A stretch of DNA of 64,000 bases from [Eubacterium] cellulosolvens LD2006 (GTDB lineage Bacteria; Bacillota; Clostridia; Lachnospirales; Lachnospiraceae): positions 186,001 through 250,000 of the forward strand of contig NZ_JHXY01000006.1 in the NCBI RefSeq assembly GCF_000621585.1, written 5' to 3'. Below the pieces are notes generated by a model that worked only from the letters and a program-made list of their open reading frames with translations, made no database searches and was not told the origin of the DNA. Shown one piece after another: positions 8,241 to 59,720 of this stretch; within the stretch, counting starts at the first letter, position 1; each line of letters starts with the position of its first letter. Both the position numbers and the translations under genes were made by a program.

Positions 8241-8380
8241 CCATCCCCTCAATCCCCCCGGTGAGCGTAGTCGGACGAAAGGCGCGCGAGCAGAATCGCG
8301 TTAGCGATCCACCCATCTGCGAGCTGCGCATGTAAGCACAGCGTTTTGTGTTATGGAATTTCGAAGGAATTTCCATAACA
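8241..8380. repeat. Dispersed repeat F1, copy A
   Basis: About 140 bp, shared with 30920-31035 and 55509-55612. Constant blocks are GGCGCGCGAGCAGAATCGCG (identical in copies A and C), CATCTGCGAG, and, exactly 16 nt later in all three copies, AGCGTTTTGTGTTAT. It ends in a hairpin (TGTGTTATGGAA / TTCCATAACACA). The segment lies between the pseudouridine synthase gene and the terminator of the short transcription unit. No coding potential is seen. Confidence 0.7.
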
Positions 8381-8388
8381 CAAATAAA

Positions 8389-8423
8389 CGACCGCCTTAT
8401 CAATACTTCTGATAAGACGGCCG
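8389..8423 (-). terminator. Terminator of the short transcription unit
   Basis: A 14-bp stem (CGGCCGTCTTATCA / TGATAAGGCGGTCG, two mismatches) with a 7-nt loop is followed on the minus strand by TTTATTT. It closes the unit that begins at the promoter 8902-8930. Confidence 0.75.
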
Positions 8424-8895
8424 CCTACTCATATGGTTCACTTGTATTCAATTGTTTGCACCTCTGTCAATGCAATTATATATTCGTATGTATTGTCTGC
8501 GGTTCCTATTCCTTACCTGAACAGGGTCTGCCTGTTCCGAACGTTACGCGCTGAATTTTTAAACAGTATCATAATTTCTCTTCTTATGATTAGCCTCGTT
8601 TCTTTACACGACGCCGGATCTGTTCTCTATGTGGTAGATTCTCAATATGAATTGCCGCTGCGCTGTACCTCTCAGCTCTCCGGTTCCGGTTTCTGTCCGG
8701 TAACTCGCTGTTTCATCATTCTATTGTGAGAGGTCTTCCTGTAAGGATCTGCTCTGCAATACCACATCATATTGAGGATGATTCTCCGGTGGATTATCGA
8801 CCATAAGATCATACCTCCTTGTTCTCTCGGCATCCTCCCGTCGGCCCGAAGTTCTGTCTCAGGCTTCTCTGTTGGGATTCCGCTTCGTTTTTATT
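8424..8895 (-). ncRNA. Short transcription unit without a long ORF (small RNA or small-peptide RNA)
   Basis: A near-consensus promoter (8902-8930) and a strong terminator (8389-8423) bound about 500 nt of minus-strand sequence in which no ORF longer than about 35 codons has a plausible ribosome site. A 27-codon ORF with AAGGAGGT upstream (8721-8804) lies in its first third. A second short ORF starts at about 8572 (18 codons, AAGAGAAATT before ATG). The rest could be a regulatory RNA. The opposite strand holds a 98-codon frame, but no promoter or ribosome site supports it. Confidence 0.5.
8721..8804 (-). CDS. 27-residue small ORF with a strong ribosome binding site
   Basis: ATG at 8804 is preceded by AAGGAGGTATGATCTT, an almost perfect Shine-Dalgarno. 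The peptide is polar and acidic (it begins MVDNPPENHPQYDV and ends LQEDLSQ), with no signal peptide or membrane helix. It lies about 90 nt after the start of the short transcript. It could be a real small protein, a leader peptide, or an accident of a purine-rich RNA; no family is recognised. Confidence 0.4.
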   Translation of the reverse strand: MVDNPPENHPQYDVVLQSRSLQEDLSQ

Positions 8896-8901
8896 AATCA
8901 T

Positions 8902-8930
8902 AGAATAGCATTCCTGGGTTAAATTGTCAA
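8902..8930 (-). promoter_or_regulatory. Strong promoter of the short transcription unit
   Basis: Perfect TTGACA (8925-8930), a 17-nt spacer and TATTCT (8902-8907) preceded by TGC on the minus strand. It is one of the closest matches to the sigma-A consensus in the window, lying 50 bp after the stop of the receiver gene at 8982. Confidence 0.75.
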
Positions 8931-8981: not shown

Positions 8982-9395
8982 TCAATCTTTCTGAAAACCC
9001 TGGAAATCCGGGTCGTTCTCGTATTCCACATAGCCCATCTGGCGGTCGACAATGCTCATGATCTCCTGGATCTTCATCGACTTGAGGATATATCCGGCCG
9101 GATGATCCTCCATGACTTTGTGCACGCTCGGCGCGTCGTTTTTTCCGGTGAGGAACATGACCGGAATATTTGCGGTCTCCTCGTGCTTCCGGAGCTCGCG
9201 GAGGACCTGCGATCCGTCCATCTCCGGCATGAGGTAATCGAGCAGTATGAGATCCGGTTTCACAACGGACGCGATCGACAGCGCATGTGCGCCGTCTACG
9301 GCAGGAATTACTCTGTATTTTCTTACAAGACTTCCTCTGATCATCTTCAGATATGGCAGGTCATCGTCCACCAGAAGAATTAATTTCTTTTCCAT
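8982..9395 (-). CDS. Stand-alone receiver-domain response regulator
   Basis: A 137-residue single REC domain: acidic pair in VDDD (residues 9-12), phospho-acceptor Asp53 in LILLDYLMPEMDG, Thr in MFLTGKN and the conserved Lys of the GYILKSM segment. There is no output domain. It starts 16 bp after the hybrid kinase gene on the same strand and is surely co-transcribed, so it is probably phosphorylated by, or drains phosphate from, that kinase through its HPt domain, and acts by protein contact. Confidence 0.9.
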   Translation of the reverse strand: MEKKLILLVDDDLPYLKMIRGSLVRKYRVIPAVDGAHALSIASVVKPDLILLDYLMPEMDGSQVLRELRKHEETANIPVMFLTGKNDAPSVHKVMEDHPAGYILKSMKIQEIMSIVDRQMGYVEYENDPDFQGFQKD

Positions 9396-9411
9396 GATCT
9401 CTTTCCCTTCC

Positions 9412-12400
9412 TTATTTCATAAGAAGTGCCTGCATGCTGTCCCAATTGAAATCATCCAATGCCTCTCTGAAGCGCCGCACAAACTCGATTTCAGCCGACT
9501 CATGGGAAATTTTTTCCAGATTCTCCGTCATTTTCGACGCACCGTCATAATCAAAATCGTCTACCAGCGCGCGAAGCTTTTGAATCGTCTCCGCATAGCT
9601 GAGCTTCGGTTCTTCCTCCGACCCGCTCTCGCAGGTGTCAGCGCAAAATGCGTTCTCATGTGTTCGATCCATCTCCAGCAGTATCTCTCTGACCGTTCGG
9701 ATCATAGCAATGATATCATCGGTGTGATACCAGAAGGATTCCATCTCTCCGCGCTTGTAACAGAGTTCCATGAACTCCGCCAGCCTGCTGGCGCATTCAA
9801 ATCCGATCAGTCTTGTGTTGCTCTTCAGCTTATGCATATGGAAAGCAAAAGCTTCACCGTCTCTGTTCTTCTGCAAAGTCTCAAGGTCAGACAGCAATAC
9901 TTCGGAGTCCTTCATGAACATTTGCAGCGATGTGAAAAACATCTCCGGCGAACCACAGAAGGAAATCGCGGAAAAAACATTGATCTCGTCGAGCTGGAAA
10001 ACCCATCCGGGAAAACTGATGCGGTTTGTCTCCTCAATACTCTCAATATATCCGTTTCCGTCTTTTTTCTCCGCTTCTCCGTCCTTCACTTCCACCTTCT
10101 CGATCTTGTCGGCCGGAAGATGCTTCATGACAACCTGCTCGAGAAGATACGGACGGATCGGCTTCGTCACGTAATCGTTGAAACCGGCTTTAATATACTG
10201 CTCTCTGGCACCCTCTACTGCATTCGCGGTGAGACAGATCGCCGGAACCGTCCGGCAGTATTCCTGAGGAAGTTTCCGGATCTCCTGCAGGGTCTCGATG
10301 CCGTCCATCTCCGGCATCTGATAATCCAGAATAACGAGATCGTACGTATACTGCTTCATCCAGGCGAGAGCCTCTGCTCCTCCGGACGCCGTGTCGATGT
10401 GCATCCCGGTTTCCTTGAGAAGTTCCCGGATAACCATGAGGTTCATCATGGCGTCATCTACAACCAGCAGAGACGCCGTCGGCGCGTGGAAGGATTCGTG
10501 ATACTCGGTATCTTCCGTTTTCCTTCTGGAATGAAGGGCGTACTGTCCGATCGACTCCACGGATGCCCGCTGCAACGGAATATCAAAGTAAAAGATGGAG
10601 CCCACGCCGTATGAACTCTTCAGCTGGAGTTCGCCGCCCATCATCTCCAGCAGTTTGCGGACAATGTTCAGACCGAGTCCGCTACCCTGAATCGTCCTTG
10701 TATGTTTAAGATCCAGACGCTCGAAGGATTCAAACAGCCTCTCCCTGTCTTCTCTGCGGATTCCGTGTCCGGTGTCCTGTACCATAAAGTGAAGAACGAC
10801 CTCCGGGAGCTCCTCCGTAGACAGCGCCGCCAGTTCTTCCATCGACTGTTCACTCCTGAGAACACAGCGGAAACTGATTTCTCCGGTATCCGTGTATTTC
10901 ACTGCATTAGAAAGAATATTGATCAATACCTGTTTCAGCCGGAAGCTGTCTCCGACGAGACTCATGGGTATTCTCGGATCCACCTGAAGATCAAACCGCA
11001 GTCCCTTCGCAGTGATCCTGTGCCGGAACATATTGTCCAGATCGTCGAGGATCGCAGGGAAATCAAACTGCTCGTTGACCGCCTCCATCTTTCCTGCCTC
11101 GATCTTGGAGAAATCGAGTACATCGTTGACCAGAGAGAGGAGCGTATTTCCCGCCTCATGGATATTCATCGCGTATTCCCGAACCTTCGGACTCAGATCT
11201 TCGCGGAGAATCAGGTCATCCATACCGAGAATCGCGGTAATCGGCGTCCGGATCTCATGGGACATATTCGACAGGAAGGACGTCTTCGCCTCATTGGCCG
11301 CCTGCGCTTTCAGCGCCATGTCGTTGAGTTCGGCCGTGGATGTCGTCAGATAGTTCGTCAGACGTTCCGTGAGGGAAAGCATCTCCTCACCGCTGCTCAG
11401 GGGTACCGGGAAAAGGTCGCCTTTGACTGCGGCCTGCTTCGGCCCTTCCCGCATGGCAACCGCGACAACCGCTCCACTGAACAATCCCTTTACGCCCTTC
11501 CACCGGTAGATTTCTCCGGAACTCGTATTGGCGAGAAGACCGATACAGGTTCTCAGATAAAGTTTGATCTCCTCCGCCTCATAGTTTCCGAGAAGTCCCT
11601 CTCTGCTCGCACAGCGGAAGACAAAGACGCATTGCGGTTCAAACTGATTGACGATCTTACTGCCCTTGTCAGCTTCCTGAATGAGTTCTTTGATACTTCC
11701 GTATCCGAGCTGAAGTTCCTCATCCTCATAGATATCCCCGTAGAAATAGAGCGTTCCGTCCTCGTCGTTCAAAAACGGAACCCGGACGATCTGTATCCCG
11801 TCTCTCTGAAGAATCAACGGGAACTCGTTGATATTGCTCAGGAAATTCTTTGTGTTCTCTATGCCCAGATATTTCTCATAAAGCCCGACCGCGGGAAGGT
11901 CATCCAGTTTCACCAGAGAGGTGTCGCCGAGCGGACGTTCCCGTTCACTGTCCACATGCGCCTTCACTCCTCTTCCGAGAACCTTCCATCCCAGCCGGTA
12001 ATCCACCATCAGATCCAGATCCTCGCCGGAATATGCCACCGCCAGAACGCCTCTGTCGATGACCCGGTTGCTTCCGATCAGGTAGGGGGTTATCCCCGCA
12101 AAGAGATCCTGCAGATACTGACTGGCTTTTGTCCCGAAGAAGGCCACGTCCTCGTCGAATCCTTCGGTCAGTTCATTGATAAATCGCGAGATTTCCATCC
12201 GTCTTCCGTGGGTAAAAAGCTGAACGCCTCTCAGATTCGGAATACACATCAATTTCTCGCGAAGATCTCTCGTACATTCTTCCTGCGACACCTCGTCGAA
12301 ATCATATTCGAACACAGTCGAGTCCGAGGATTCAAAGAAAAGAAAGCTGATTTTCGCTCCCAGAAGGTCATTCTTCTTGTCCCGTCCGTACTGGGAAATT

Positions 12401-12594
12401 CCGGTCACGATCATCTTTGGATAGGCTTTTCTCAGAATCTTGATTACCTGCGAAATCAGCTGTTTGGGAACTCTGTTGGTATAGACGACGACCACGGATG
12501 ATTTCGCCTCGTAGTACATGGTCTCGAGACCGACATTGTTCATAATTTCATAGACATCTTTTTCGTCATGGACGATATAGGTTTTCTGAATCAT
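9412..12594 (-). CDS. FIST-domain hybrid sensor histidine kinase with receiver and HPt domains
   Basis: A 1060-residue cytoplasmic kinase without membrane helices. The N-terminal ~380 residues match the FIST sensory module (FIST_N then FIST_C), proposed to bind small ligands such as amino acids. A HisKA domain follows with the phospho-accepting His446 in NMSHEIRTP. The HATPase domain has the N-box INILSNAVKYTDTGE, DTGHGI and GSGLGLNIV. A receiver domain has Asp757 (VILDYQMPEMDG), and a C-terminal HPt domain has His921 (HKLKSNTRLIG). This is a complete internal His-Asp-His relay. Start at 12594 follows GGAGG. The downstream partner is the single receiver at 8982-9395. Confidence 0.93.
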   Translation of the reverse strand: MIQKTYIVHDEKDVYEIMNNVGLETMYYEAKSSVVVVYTNRVPKQLISQVIKILRKAYPKMIVTGISQYGRDKKNDLLGAKISFLFFESSDSTVFEYDFDEVSQEECTRDLREKLMCIPNLRGVQLFTHGRRMEISRFINELTEGFDEDVAFFGTKASQYLQDLFAGITPYLIGSNRVIDRGVLAVAYSGEDLDLMVDYRLGWKVLGRGVKAHVDSERERPLGDTSLVKLDDLPAVGLYEKYLGIENTKNFLSNINEFPLILQRDGIQIVRVPFLNDEDGTLYFYGDIYEDEELQLGYGSIKELIQEADKGSKIVNQFEPQCVFVFRCASREGLLGNYEAEEIKLYLRTCIGLLANTSSGEIYRWKGVKGLFSGAVVAVAMREGPKQAAVKGDLFPVPLSSGEEMLSLTERLTNYLTTSTAELNDMALKAQAANEAKTSFLSNMSHEIRTPITAILGMDDLILREDLSPKVREYAMNIHEAGNTLLSLVNDVLDFSKIEAGKMEAVNEQFDFPAILDDLDNMFRHRITAKGLRFDLQVDPRIPMSLVGDSFRLKQVLINILSNAVKYTDTGEISFRCVLRSEQSMEELAALSTEELPEVVLHFMVQDTGHGIRREDRERLFESFERLDLKHTRTIQGSGLGLNIVRKLLEMMGGELQLKSSYGVGSIFYFDIPLQRASVESIGQYALHSRRKTEDTEYHESFHAPTASLLVVDDAMMNLMVIRELLKETGMHIDTASGGAEALAWMKQYTYDLVILDYQMPEMDGIETLQEIRKLPQEYCRTVPAICLTANAVEGAREQYIKAGFNDYVTKPIRPYLLEQVVMKHLPADKIEKVEVKDGEAEKKDGNGYIESIEETNRISFPGWVFQLDEINVFSAISFCGSPEMFFTSLQMFMKDSEVLLSDLETLQKNRDGEAFAFHMHKLKSNTRLIGFECASRLAEFMELCYKRGEMESFWYHTDDIIAMIRTVREILLEMDRTHENAFCADTCESGSEEEPKLSYAETIQKLRALVDDFDYDGASKMTENLEKISHESAEIEFVRRFREALDDFNWDSMQALLMK

Positions 12595-12984: not shown

Positions 12985-15288
12985 TCAGGATTTGTGCTCT
13001 CTGTAGTAGTTGATCAGACAGCCGTCAAGGATAATCTCTCTCTCGTCGTCGGTCAGATCTCCGAGACGAAGCTCAAACTCCTTCAGCGTTCCGGCCTCCG
13101 GATCTACCGTGTAGGCAGTGATGCTGTTCTTCTTTGTCTCGACCGCGCTGCGGATCTGCGGAACAAAGAGGAAGTCGCCGTTCTTGAACGGAAGCTCGCC
13201 CTCGTCTACGAGGAACGGAAGCATTCCCCAGTTGATCAGATTGGAGCGGTATCTCTTTGTCGCGTAGTCGTTGGCAATATTTGCCCAGCCGCCGAGAACC
13301 TTCTGACAGGAAGCTGCCTGCTCGCGGGCGGAACCGTCTCCCGGTTTTACCGCGAAGATCGTGGAGCCGACGCCGATGTTGTCGTGTCCTGTCTCCGGGA
13401 ACTGTTTGCGGATGGTCTCCATCACCGGCTTCAGTGCCGGAAGTGCCTCGCCTGCGCACTTGCCTTCCTCGAGGGCATGCTGTGCCTTCTGTACTTCTTT
13501 TGCTCTTCCCACATAGAGCGGATCTTTTCTGGAGAGAGCAAATTCCGCAAGACGAAGCGGATTGGAGCGGTAAGAGGAAGTCTCACCGGACGGAATCAGC
13601 TCGTCTGTTGTTGTAACCGGATCGTGAATCTCGGATACCACCTTGAGGATGAGATTCTCCGGAAGGGCGGACATGGTCGGCCAGTCCTTGATATTCGGTC
13701 CGAAGCGTACTTCAACCGTCTCATCTGCTTTTCCGTGGCTGTCGAATACACGATGCTCGTAGATATTTTTGTCAAAATGATATACCGGATGACGGTACTC
13801 ACCCGCAAACTCTGTAGCCGGTGTGAGGTATCCCTGGTTGGCAGCTGTTGCCGCGATGGAACGCGCGTCCATGAGCGCAACTCCTGCAACCTGTCCCTCC
13901 TGAACCTTGGATCCCTCGCGGTTCGGGAAGTTTCTTGTGGAATGACGAATGGACAGATGTCCGTTGGCCGGTGTATCGCCTGCGCCGAAGCAGGGTCCGC
14001 AGAATGCCGTCTTGACAACCGCGCCGGTCTCCATGAGATCTGCCAGAACGCCGTTGGCTGCCAGCTCTTTGTAGATCGGGGAACTTGCCGGATAAACACT
14101 GAGGGTGAAGTCATCGCTTCCGATGTACTGTCCGCGGAGAATGTCCGCAGCATCACAGATATTCTCGAAACCACCGCCCGCGCAGCCGGCGATAACACCC
14201 TGATCAACCAGGAGACGTCCGTTCTTCACTTTGGAGTGAAGATCGTAGCTCACCTGTCCGTTGAAGGATACCTGCGCTCTCTTCTCTACGTCATTCAGGA
14301 TATCGTCGAGGTTCGCGTTGAGCTCCTCGATGGTATATACATTGCTCGGATGGAACGGCATCGCGATCATCGGACGGATCTTGTCCAGTTCTACATGGAT
14401 GCATCCGTCGTAGTAGGCAACCGCACCCGGATTCAGCGGGCGATAGTCGCCGGAACGGCCGTGCTCGTCGTACCATCCCTTGATGGCGTCATCGGTTCTC
14501 CAGATGGAGGACAGACAGGTCGTCTCTGTTGTCATAACGTCGACGCCGATACGGAAGTCTGCGGAGAGATTGGAGATTCCGGGTCCCACAAACTCCATAA
14601 CTTTGTTCTTTACATAACCCTTTTCAAATACGGCACCGATGATCGCGAGAGCAACATCCTGCGGACCGACGCCCGGTACCGGACTTCCTGTCATGTACAC
14701 GGCAACCACGCCCGGCATCTTGATGTCATAAGTCTTGGAAAGGAGCTGCTTCACAAGCTCCGGTCCGCCCTCTCCCATAGCCATGGTTCCGAGAGCTCCG
14801 TAGCGGGTGTGGGAATCGGATCCGAGGATCATGCTTCCGACACCTGCCAGCATCTCGCGGGCAAACTGGTGGATGACCGCCTGGTGCGGCGGCACATAGA
14901 TTCCGCCGTATCTCTTCGCGCAGGAAAGGCCGTACATGTGATCATCCTCATTGATCGTACCGCCGACTGCACAGAGGGAATTGTGGCAGTTTGTAAGAAC
15001 ATAGGGAATCGGGAACTTCTCGAGCCCTGATGCTCTGGCTGTCTGAATAATTCCGACATAGGTAATATCGTGGCTTGTCAGCTTATCGAACTTAATCTGA
15101 AGCGCATCCATATTATCTGAAGTATTATGTGCCTTCAGAATACCGTATGCCATCGTTTCTTTCTTTGCTTCTTCCGCGGAAACACTTCTTCCGGCCGCCT
15201 GCTGAAGCTGCGCAGCCGCGTCAGGGCCGTCCGCAATTACCGTTTCTCCGTTGACGAGATATACTCCGCCGTTCTGTAACTCAATCAT
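12985..15288 (-). CDS. Aconitase-family hydratase
   Basis: A 767-residue [4Fe-4S] dehydratase of the aconitase/isopropylmalate isomerase superfamily. Cluster ligands are visible as Cys in the [10 protein letters not shown] region and both Cys of [19 protein letters not shown] carries the active-site Ser/His motif, and the C-terminal swivel domain has the [13 protein letters not shown] segment. Its divergence from AcnA and LeuC suggests the YbhJ-like hydratase group common in Lachnospiraceae; aconitase activity is possible but not proven. Start at 15288 follows GGAGGAGAAGG. It stands alone, divergent from the 88-residue protein. Confidence 0.85.
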
Positions 15289-15378
15289 CCTTCTCCTCCT
15301 GCCCTTCCGGGAATCCGCCTTTATTCTTTCTCCCATCCGGGTCTACCGTCGTTATTTTTTCGCCGGTTTGTATCTTAT

Positions 15379-59576: not shown

Positions 59577-59720
59577 AAAAAAAAGCGGTCCAATAAACAT
59601 GAATTGGATCCGCTACCAACTCCCTTATTGTTCGAAAATCTCGCTCAGGCAGGCACCTTCCGTAAACGGGGTTGCCGTGGTTTCACAGGTCCTATGTACC
59701 TCCGCCACTCTGAATAAGAG
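59577..59720 (-). promoter_or_regulatory. SAM-I (S-box) riboswitch with terminator upstream of metK
   Basis: Aptamer 59621-59720: P1 CTCTTATT / AATAAGGGA, then the hallmark CAGAGTGGCGGAGG, ACCTGTGAAACCACGGCAAC and GGAAGGTGCCTGCCTGAGCG. The expression platform is a terminator (59577-59613): AGCGGATCCAATT / ATTGGACCGCT followed by eight T. SAM binding stabilises P1 and lets the terminator form, turning metK off. About 125 nt separate the terminator from the metK ATG. Confidence 0.95.

Follow-up and report, generated by a model that had tools for sequence, protein, structure and literature searches.

What is encoded by a stretch of chromosome that carries a near-consensus promoter and a strong terminator, with no long gene between them? 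This question was raised by an earlier note on positions 8389-8930 of the window, the 64,000-nucleotide stretch of the [Eubacterium] cellulosolvens LD2006 genome analyzed here, which suggested that such a unit might yield a small RNA or a small protein. We found that the minus strand from 8930 to 8383 reads, on its sequence signals, as a single transcription unit with no long ORF in ~510 nt (Table 1); the proposed extent was borne out as a unit, but its 3′ boundary lies nearer 8383 than 8389. The promoter is present as described, with TTGACA at 8930-8925, a spacer of 17 nt, TATTCT at 8907-8902 and a TG before the −10 element (extended), a match at 10 of 12 positions. Because promoter-like sites occur five times in the 2.5-kb region, compared to 2.5 expected from shuffles, this promoter by itself would prove little. 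Among the 88 homologues with enough flank, however, a promoter scoring 10-11 of 12 was found within 200 nt upstream in 61, compared to 9 of 88 shuffled flanks. Similarly, terminator-like sites numbered six (2.1 expected), and the strong terminator that had been claimed has its counterpart in hairpin terminators at the 3′ end of 43 homologues, as counted by a strict scan. The span also folds more strongly than its dinucleotide shuffles (z −4.3; 0/100). There is a 98-aa ORF on the opposite strand (8433-8729), but the conserved signals (promoter, Shine-Dalgarno and terminator) are all on the minus strand. We also noted a perfect-looking inverted repeat, GTTATGGAATTTCGAAGGAATTTCCATAAC, just past the terminator (8350-8379), which is missing in the nearest relative (L002 in G007).

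Table 1. Features of the predicted RNA and its signals, in window coordinates, ordered 5′ to 3′ along the minus strand where possible
Feature	Position	Strand	Remarks
Promoter	8902..8930	-	TTGACA, 17 nt, TATTCT; also kept 5′ of relatives
Whole structured RNA	8383..8895	-	~510 nt; 5′ end placed from the promoter; homologues exist
5′ hairpin GCCUGAGACAGAACUUCGGGC	8844..8864	-	In several genus members; stem variable, loop GACAGAACUU kept in L002, L005, L006, L009
Shine-Dalgarno AAGGAGG	8814..8820	-	Kept in nearly all relatives
Mini-ORF	8721..8804	-	27 codons and stop, MVDNPPENHPQYDVVLQSRSLQEDLSQ; same-frame relatives 15-35 codons up to QY-x-S-G
Helix A, 5′ strand CUCAAUAUGA	8767..8776	-	Within ORF; covariation in three alignments
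Helix A, 3′ strand UCAUAUUGAG	8641..8650	-	Covariation in three alignments
Pseudoknot helix B, 5′ strand GUGGUA	8760..8765	-	Within ORF; covariation, L227
Pseudoknot helix B, 3′ strand UACCAC	8631..8636	-	Covariation, L227
Helix C, 5′ strand UUGC	8756..8759	-	Within ORF; covariation
Helix C, 3′ strand GCAA	8652..8655	-	Covariation
Helix D, 5′ strand ACCUCUCA	8727..8734	-	Covariation; complementary to Shine-Dalgarno too (duplex energies)
Helix D, 3′ strand UGAGAGGU	8667..8674	-	Covariation
Hairpin GUGUAAAGAAAC with conserved loop GUAAAGAA	8598..8609	-	3′ of core in 63/90 relatives
Intrinsic terminator hairpin	8384..8428	-	At least 20 pairs, then TTTGTGTT; relatives also with terminators

Comparison across related genomes, which had been proposed as a check, revealed conservation of the promoter, the terminator, the structure and the interior. 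Within the genus, 11 of 16 genomes (including the window's own) had a match, and clear homologues were present in nine other genomes, where the TTGACA promoter, the Shine-Dalgarno and the start codon were found every time; genus relatives that carry the element include Bilifractor porci. Total length reaches ~850-900 nt in genus relatives via insertions in the 3′ part, and it is therefore not conserved. In L003, L004, L006 and L009 the segments inserted between core and terminator measure hundreds of nucleotides. R1, a covariance model built on the 5′ core, matched in 54 of 250 family genomes (E ≤ 0.1) and, across the order, only in Lachnospiraceae, while a broader model from a trimmed alignment (R2) matched in 54 of 249 sampled Lachnospiraceae genera (E ≤ 0.001). 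Named carriers in this family, found by a pattern scan and then R1, are Blautia (including B. hansenii), Dorea and Extibacter; unrelated pattern-scan matches in named genomes were set aside as spurious, as were two weak hits (L011 and L016) put down to chance. In a class-wide sample R2 found nothing convincing outside Lachnospiraceae, an absence only as good as the models, and the only weak match beyond the family (L226 in G830, E 0.001) resembles coding sequence. Only about a fifth of the family's genera gave a match, with models of limited reach.

The neighborhood of the element is also kept. Aconitase lies upstream on the same strand in 27 loci, and some other loci have an ECF-type sigma factor and its partner upstream; downstream, on the same strand, we found a gene for a TPR-like protein in 34 loci and one for an RluD-type pseudouridine synthase in 19. 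In the window, aconitase occupies 12985-15336, and a histidine kinase and a response regulator lie between it and the RNA. The kinase gene (8982-12594, minus strand) encodes a hybrid sensor kinase of 1060 aa that includes FIST and Hpt domains, and stands beside a lone receiver protein. Given the synteny and the mostly single copy, a mobile or phage element is unlikely, and, to judge from these genome comparisons, the element behaves like a chromosomal gene passed on by vertical descent. In G097 alone the RNA occurs twice, once adjoining aconitase (L225) and once elsewhere (L021), the latter with an ORF of just two codons (ATG GGA TAG).

With a downstream gene close by on the same strand, and a leader-peptide-like ORF that precedes a terminator, we considered that the element might be a leader or attenuator of the RluD-type or TPR gene. 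We regard this as very unlikely, however, since the downstream gene varies among lineages, and since the distance from ORF to terminator is several hundred nucleotides with no visible anti-terminator. Moreover, a separate promoter-like site at 8206-8177 lies between the terminator and rluD, and because of this separation the RNA appears to be independent of the downstream gene; promoter-like sites are likewise visible before the TPR gene in L037, L043 and L044.

The core fold consists of five helices (A to E), of which B crosses A as a pseudoknot. In the genus alignment (10 sequences), 96.3% of cells were paired, with 10 compensatory pairs; in the family alignment (38 sequences, fitted to the model), 92.3% were paired, with 28 compensatory pairs; and in an independent MAFFT alignment of subfamily B (39 sequences), 95.3% were paired. 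The covariation score was reached by 0 of 500 shuffles, counts that are not probabilities because the sequences are related, and when the partners were slid against each other only 30-43% of cells were paired. In a distant member (L227), A, B and C have all been replaced by new sequences that are complementary again (A, UGCGAC/GUCGCA and GAUC/GAUC; B, GUGAUGU/ACAUCAC; C, UGCAAAUG/CAUUUGCA), and the ORF is open. We rejected a pairing of the Shine-Dalgarno GGUA with UACC proposed by RNAalifold, as L003, L004 and L008 are without GGUA and L007 changes partner; GUGGUA/UACCAC covaries instead. Conservation and covariation rule out a chance non-coding gap, and from these alignments the element is almost certainly a conserved RNA family of Lachnospiraceae with the fold described. 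Separately, a loop motif, ACAGAACUU, recurs in L005, L006, L008 and the window (8864-8844), where it is seen within the 5′ hairpin, within the 3′ domain (as CACAGAACUUUCUAAG) and once in a terminator loop; it is possibly a shared binding motif.

This family does not correspond to a known one. A search of the window element against Rfam 15, at gathering and at permissive thresholds, gave no family (the best match stayed below threshold, scoring 20.3 bits where 45 are required, and most of it fell on the terminator), and nine relatives gave no family at threshold. The element lies on contig C3, whereas the genome's tmRNA (G000:C5:95459-95812, 164.9 bits) and its 6S RNA (G000:C5:57239-57420) are elsewhere, so that both identities were rejected. 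We found no description of such an RNA in the literature searched, although one of the large screens may already list it as an unnamed candidate. In the whole window, the only element to reach an Rfam gathering threshold is a SAM riboswitch aptamer (RF00162, 70.1 bits) at 59622-59720 on the minus strand.

Is the mini-ORF translated, and if so, is the peptide the product? The 27-codon ORF and its near-perfect Shine-Dalgarno are where the earlier note had placed them, and the length owes something to a one-base deletion after QYD, which lengthens the ORF to 27-28 codons in the window and in G007. The frame is clearly held: the distance from the start to helix A (CAA) is 24, 27 or 30, that is, 0 mod 3, in 81 of 86 members, and only 5 of these 81 have an in-frame stop before helix A, compared to 37 expected. 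Control segments had no 3-nt periodicity, and the lengths of other segments vary freely. Because the sequences are related, we counted length changes on the tree, and found at least 17 in the start-to-helix segment, 5 of them frame changes, compared to 68 length changes with 41 frame changes in a control segment; the binomial P of ≤5 of 17 is 0.002, assuming that two thirds of changes break the frame and that changes are independent. The covarying structure and the frame-conserved mini-ORF in relatives thus both speak for the view that the locus is a small RNA or a small-protein gene.

With a conserved frame, avoided stops and a strong Shine-Dalgarno, the element could simply be an mRNA for a small protein, in which the long, structured 3′ portion would serve stability only, but we consider this highly improbable. 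Peptide residues in the variable part are not conserved, and the synonymous-substitution test that the note had envisaged gave no coding signal there: in near pairs, 43 of 204 changed codons were synonymous (0.21), equal to the null (0.21), and because the variable codons are without synonymous bias, it may not be the peptide as such that matters. There was no match of the peptide in Pfam or NCBIfam. Moreover, the helices pass through the codons and covary, and L227 swaps the QYVSG residues for others while the pairing is preserved. Finally, members of at least six genera have retained the RNA with no usable ORF (L020, L021, L025, L026, L031 and L035), and because of this translation is not essential everywhere; the absent bias, the lost ORFs and L227 together weaken the case for a conventional small-protein gene. 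Nevertheless, as judged from the frame, most members carry a genuine mini-ORF, which selection keeps open, with exceptions in six genera.

The Shine-Dalgarno itself may be paired inside the RNA. In subfamily B it forms a helix (S) with the 3′ part of its own ORF (GGAGGCUUAAU/GUUAAGCCUUU; 86% paired, 3 compensatory pairs), and the support for this helix is confined to that subfamily. In the window subfamily, the equivalent segment, ACCUCUC, has two potential partners, the Shine-Dalgarno (−8.8 kcal/mol) and the other strand of helix D (−13.3 kcal/mol), so that in the window the internal pairing of the Shine-Dalgarno is weaker than helix D. Pairing of the Shine-Dalgarno with the 16S anti-SD is estimated at −12.6 kcal/mol, and the internal pairing energies come near this, all being two-strand energies only.

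We consider it rather probable that the element is an autonomous structured RNA of ~500 nt with a dual-purpose ORF, in which translation would preclude folding and vice versa. The RNA would run from its own promoter to its own terminator; the strong Shine-Dalgarno and start codon would open an ORF of 15-35 codons, and these codons provide the 5′ strand of each of helices A, B and C. Because the strands belong to the ORF, the knot could not stay folded during translation: a ribosome on the ORF would have to open it, and once folded it would keep the ribosome out, while an internal segment, ACCUUU or GCCUUU, could alternatively capture the Shine-Dalgarno. The RNA would then act via whichever state, translated or folded, prevails, most likely as a trans-acting or housekeeping regulatory RNA that may have a downstream target. 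That it is translation of the ORF which gates the RNA, the peptide not being the product, is a tentative proposal that we hold at somewhat below an even chance. It is doubtful that the family represents a new class of translation-gated RNA, in which ribosome traffic and not the peptide sets the folding of a large regulatory RNA.

The gated RNA is the reading we favor, and it has two main rivals. In one, ribosomes or their 30S subunits would be drawn in by the conserved Shine-Dalgarno and the start hairpin and retained by the knot, so that the RNA acts on translation as a store, a decoy or a sensor and the ORF need only be open. This would fit a frame held while residues are free, and it would fit the Shine-Dalgarno and start still kept where the ORF has only 2-4 codons (L021, L025, L026, L031 and L035), but subfamily B pairs its Shine-Dalgarno internally and L020 is missing the start codon; we think this distinctly unlikely. 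The other is an RNAIII-like dual-function regulator, in which exposed C-rich stretches (the conserved UUCC(C) between helices C and D) would pair with target mRNAs and a small peptide would be encoded separately. The size and layout are similar to those of RNAIII, which is 514 nt long with an internal 26-aa hld, whose translation lags transcription, and C-rich hairpins (PMC8383071), and TTCC or TCCC occurs in the C-to-D stretch of 76 of 90 relatives. In many subfamily-A members, however, UUCCC can pair with GGGAA after the start codon, and with unconserved residues in the variable part, no RNAIII homology and no agr linkage, this rival seems to us rather unlikely.

In any case, dominant gut bacteria from dozens of genera, Blautia and Dorea among them, have retained a large RNA, for the most part at a single chromosomal locus, and it is invisible to current annotation, having no long gene and no Rfam family. 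Its anatomy poses a testable question: could a short ORF be kept for the act of translation, because its codons double as a pseudoknot strand? If the gated reading is true, the RNA would report translation-initiation capacity to the cell in much of Lachnospiraceae.

At the level of sequence the element has two of the marks of a dual-function RNA, the conserved structure of an autonomous RNA and an ORF selected to stay open. tmRNA is likewise a structured RNA that contains pseudoknots and a short reading frame, but the frame here comes with a Shine-Dalgarno and a start codon, and the Rfam tmRNA model did not match; like 6S RNA the element is an autonomous structured RNA, here with no Rfam match. 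With leader-peptide attenuators it shares a short ORF that overlaps mutually exclusive helices, but it is a terminated autonomous unit and the genes downstream differ between lineages. RNAIII and other dual-function RNAs (SgrS/SgrT, SR1) resemble it in length (~500 nt), in having their own promoter and terminator, and in an internal ORF with a strong Shine-Dalgarno and structure around it. In contrast to these, the RNA described here has no Rfam relation, ORF codons that are pseudoknot strands and unconserved residues, and, compared to S. aureus RNAIII, a chromosomal locus by aconitase with no agr; RNAIII may nonetheless be the closest in possible mode of working, without homology. OLE, ROOL, GOLLD and raiA are, like this RNA, large, structured, pseudoknotted, lineage-limited and of unknown biochemical role. 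The Rfam models of all four, raiA having an entry as well, left the element without a match, and it differs from them in its frame-conserved ORF. OLE, ROOL and GOLLD have Rfam entries, and ROOL and GOLLD occur in phages and tRNA islands (PMC12286853), whereas the element here is kept at a chromosomal locus. As large structured RNAs, OLE, ROOL and GOLLD are the closest to it (PMC12286853).
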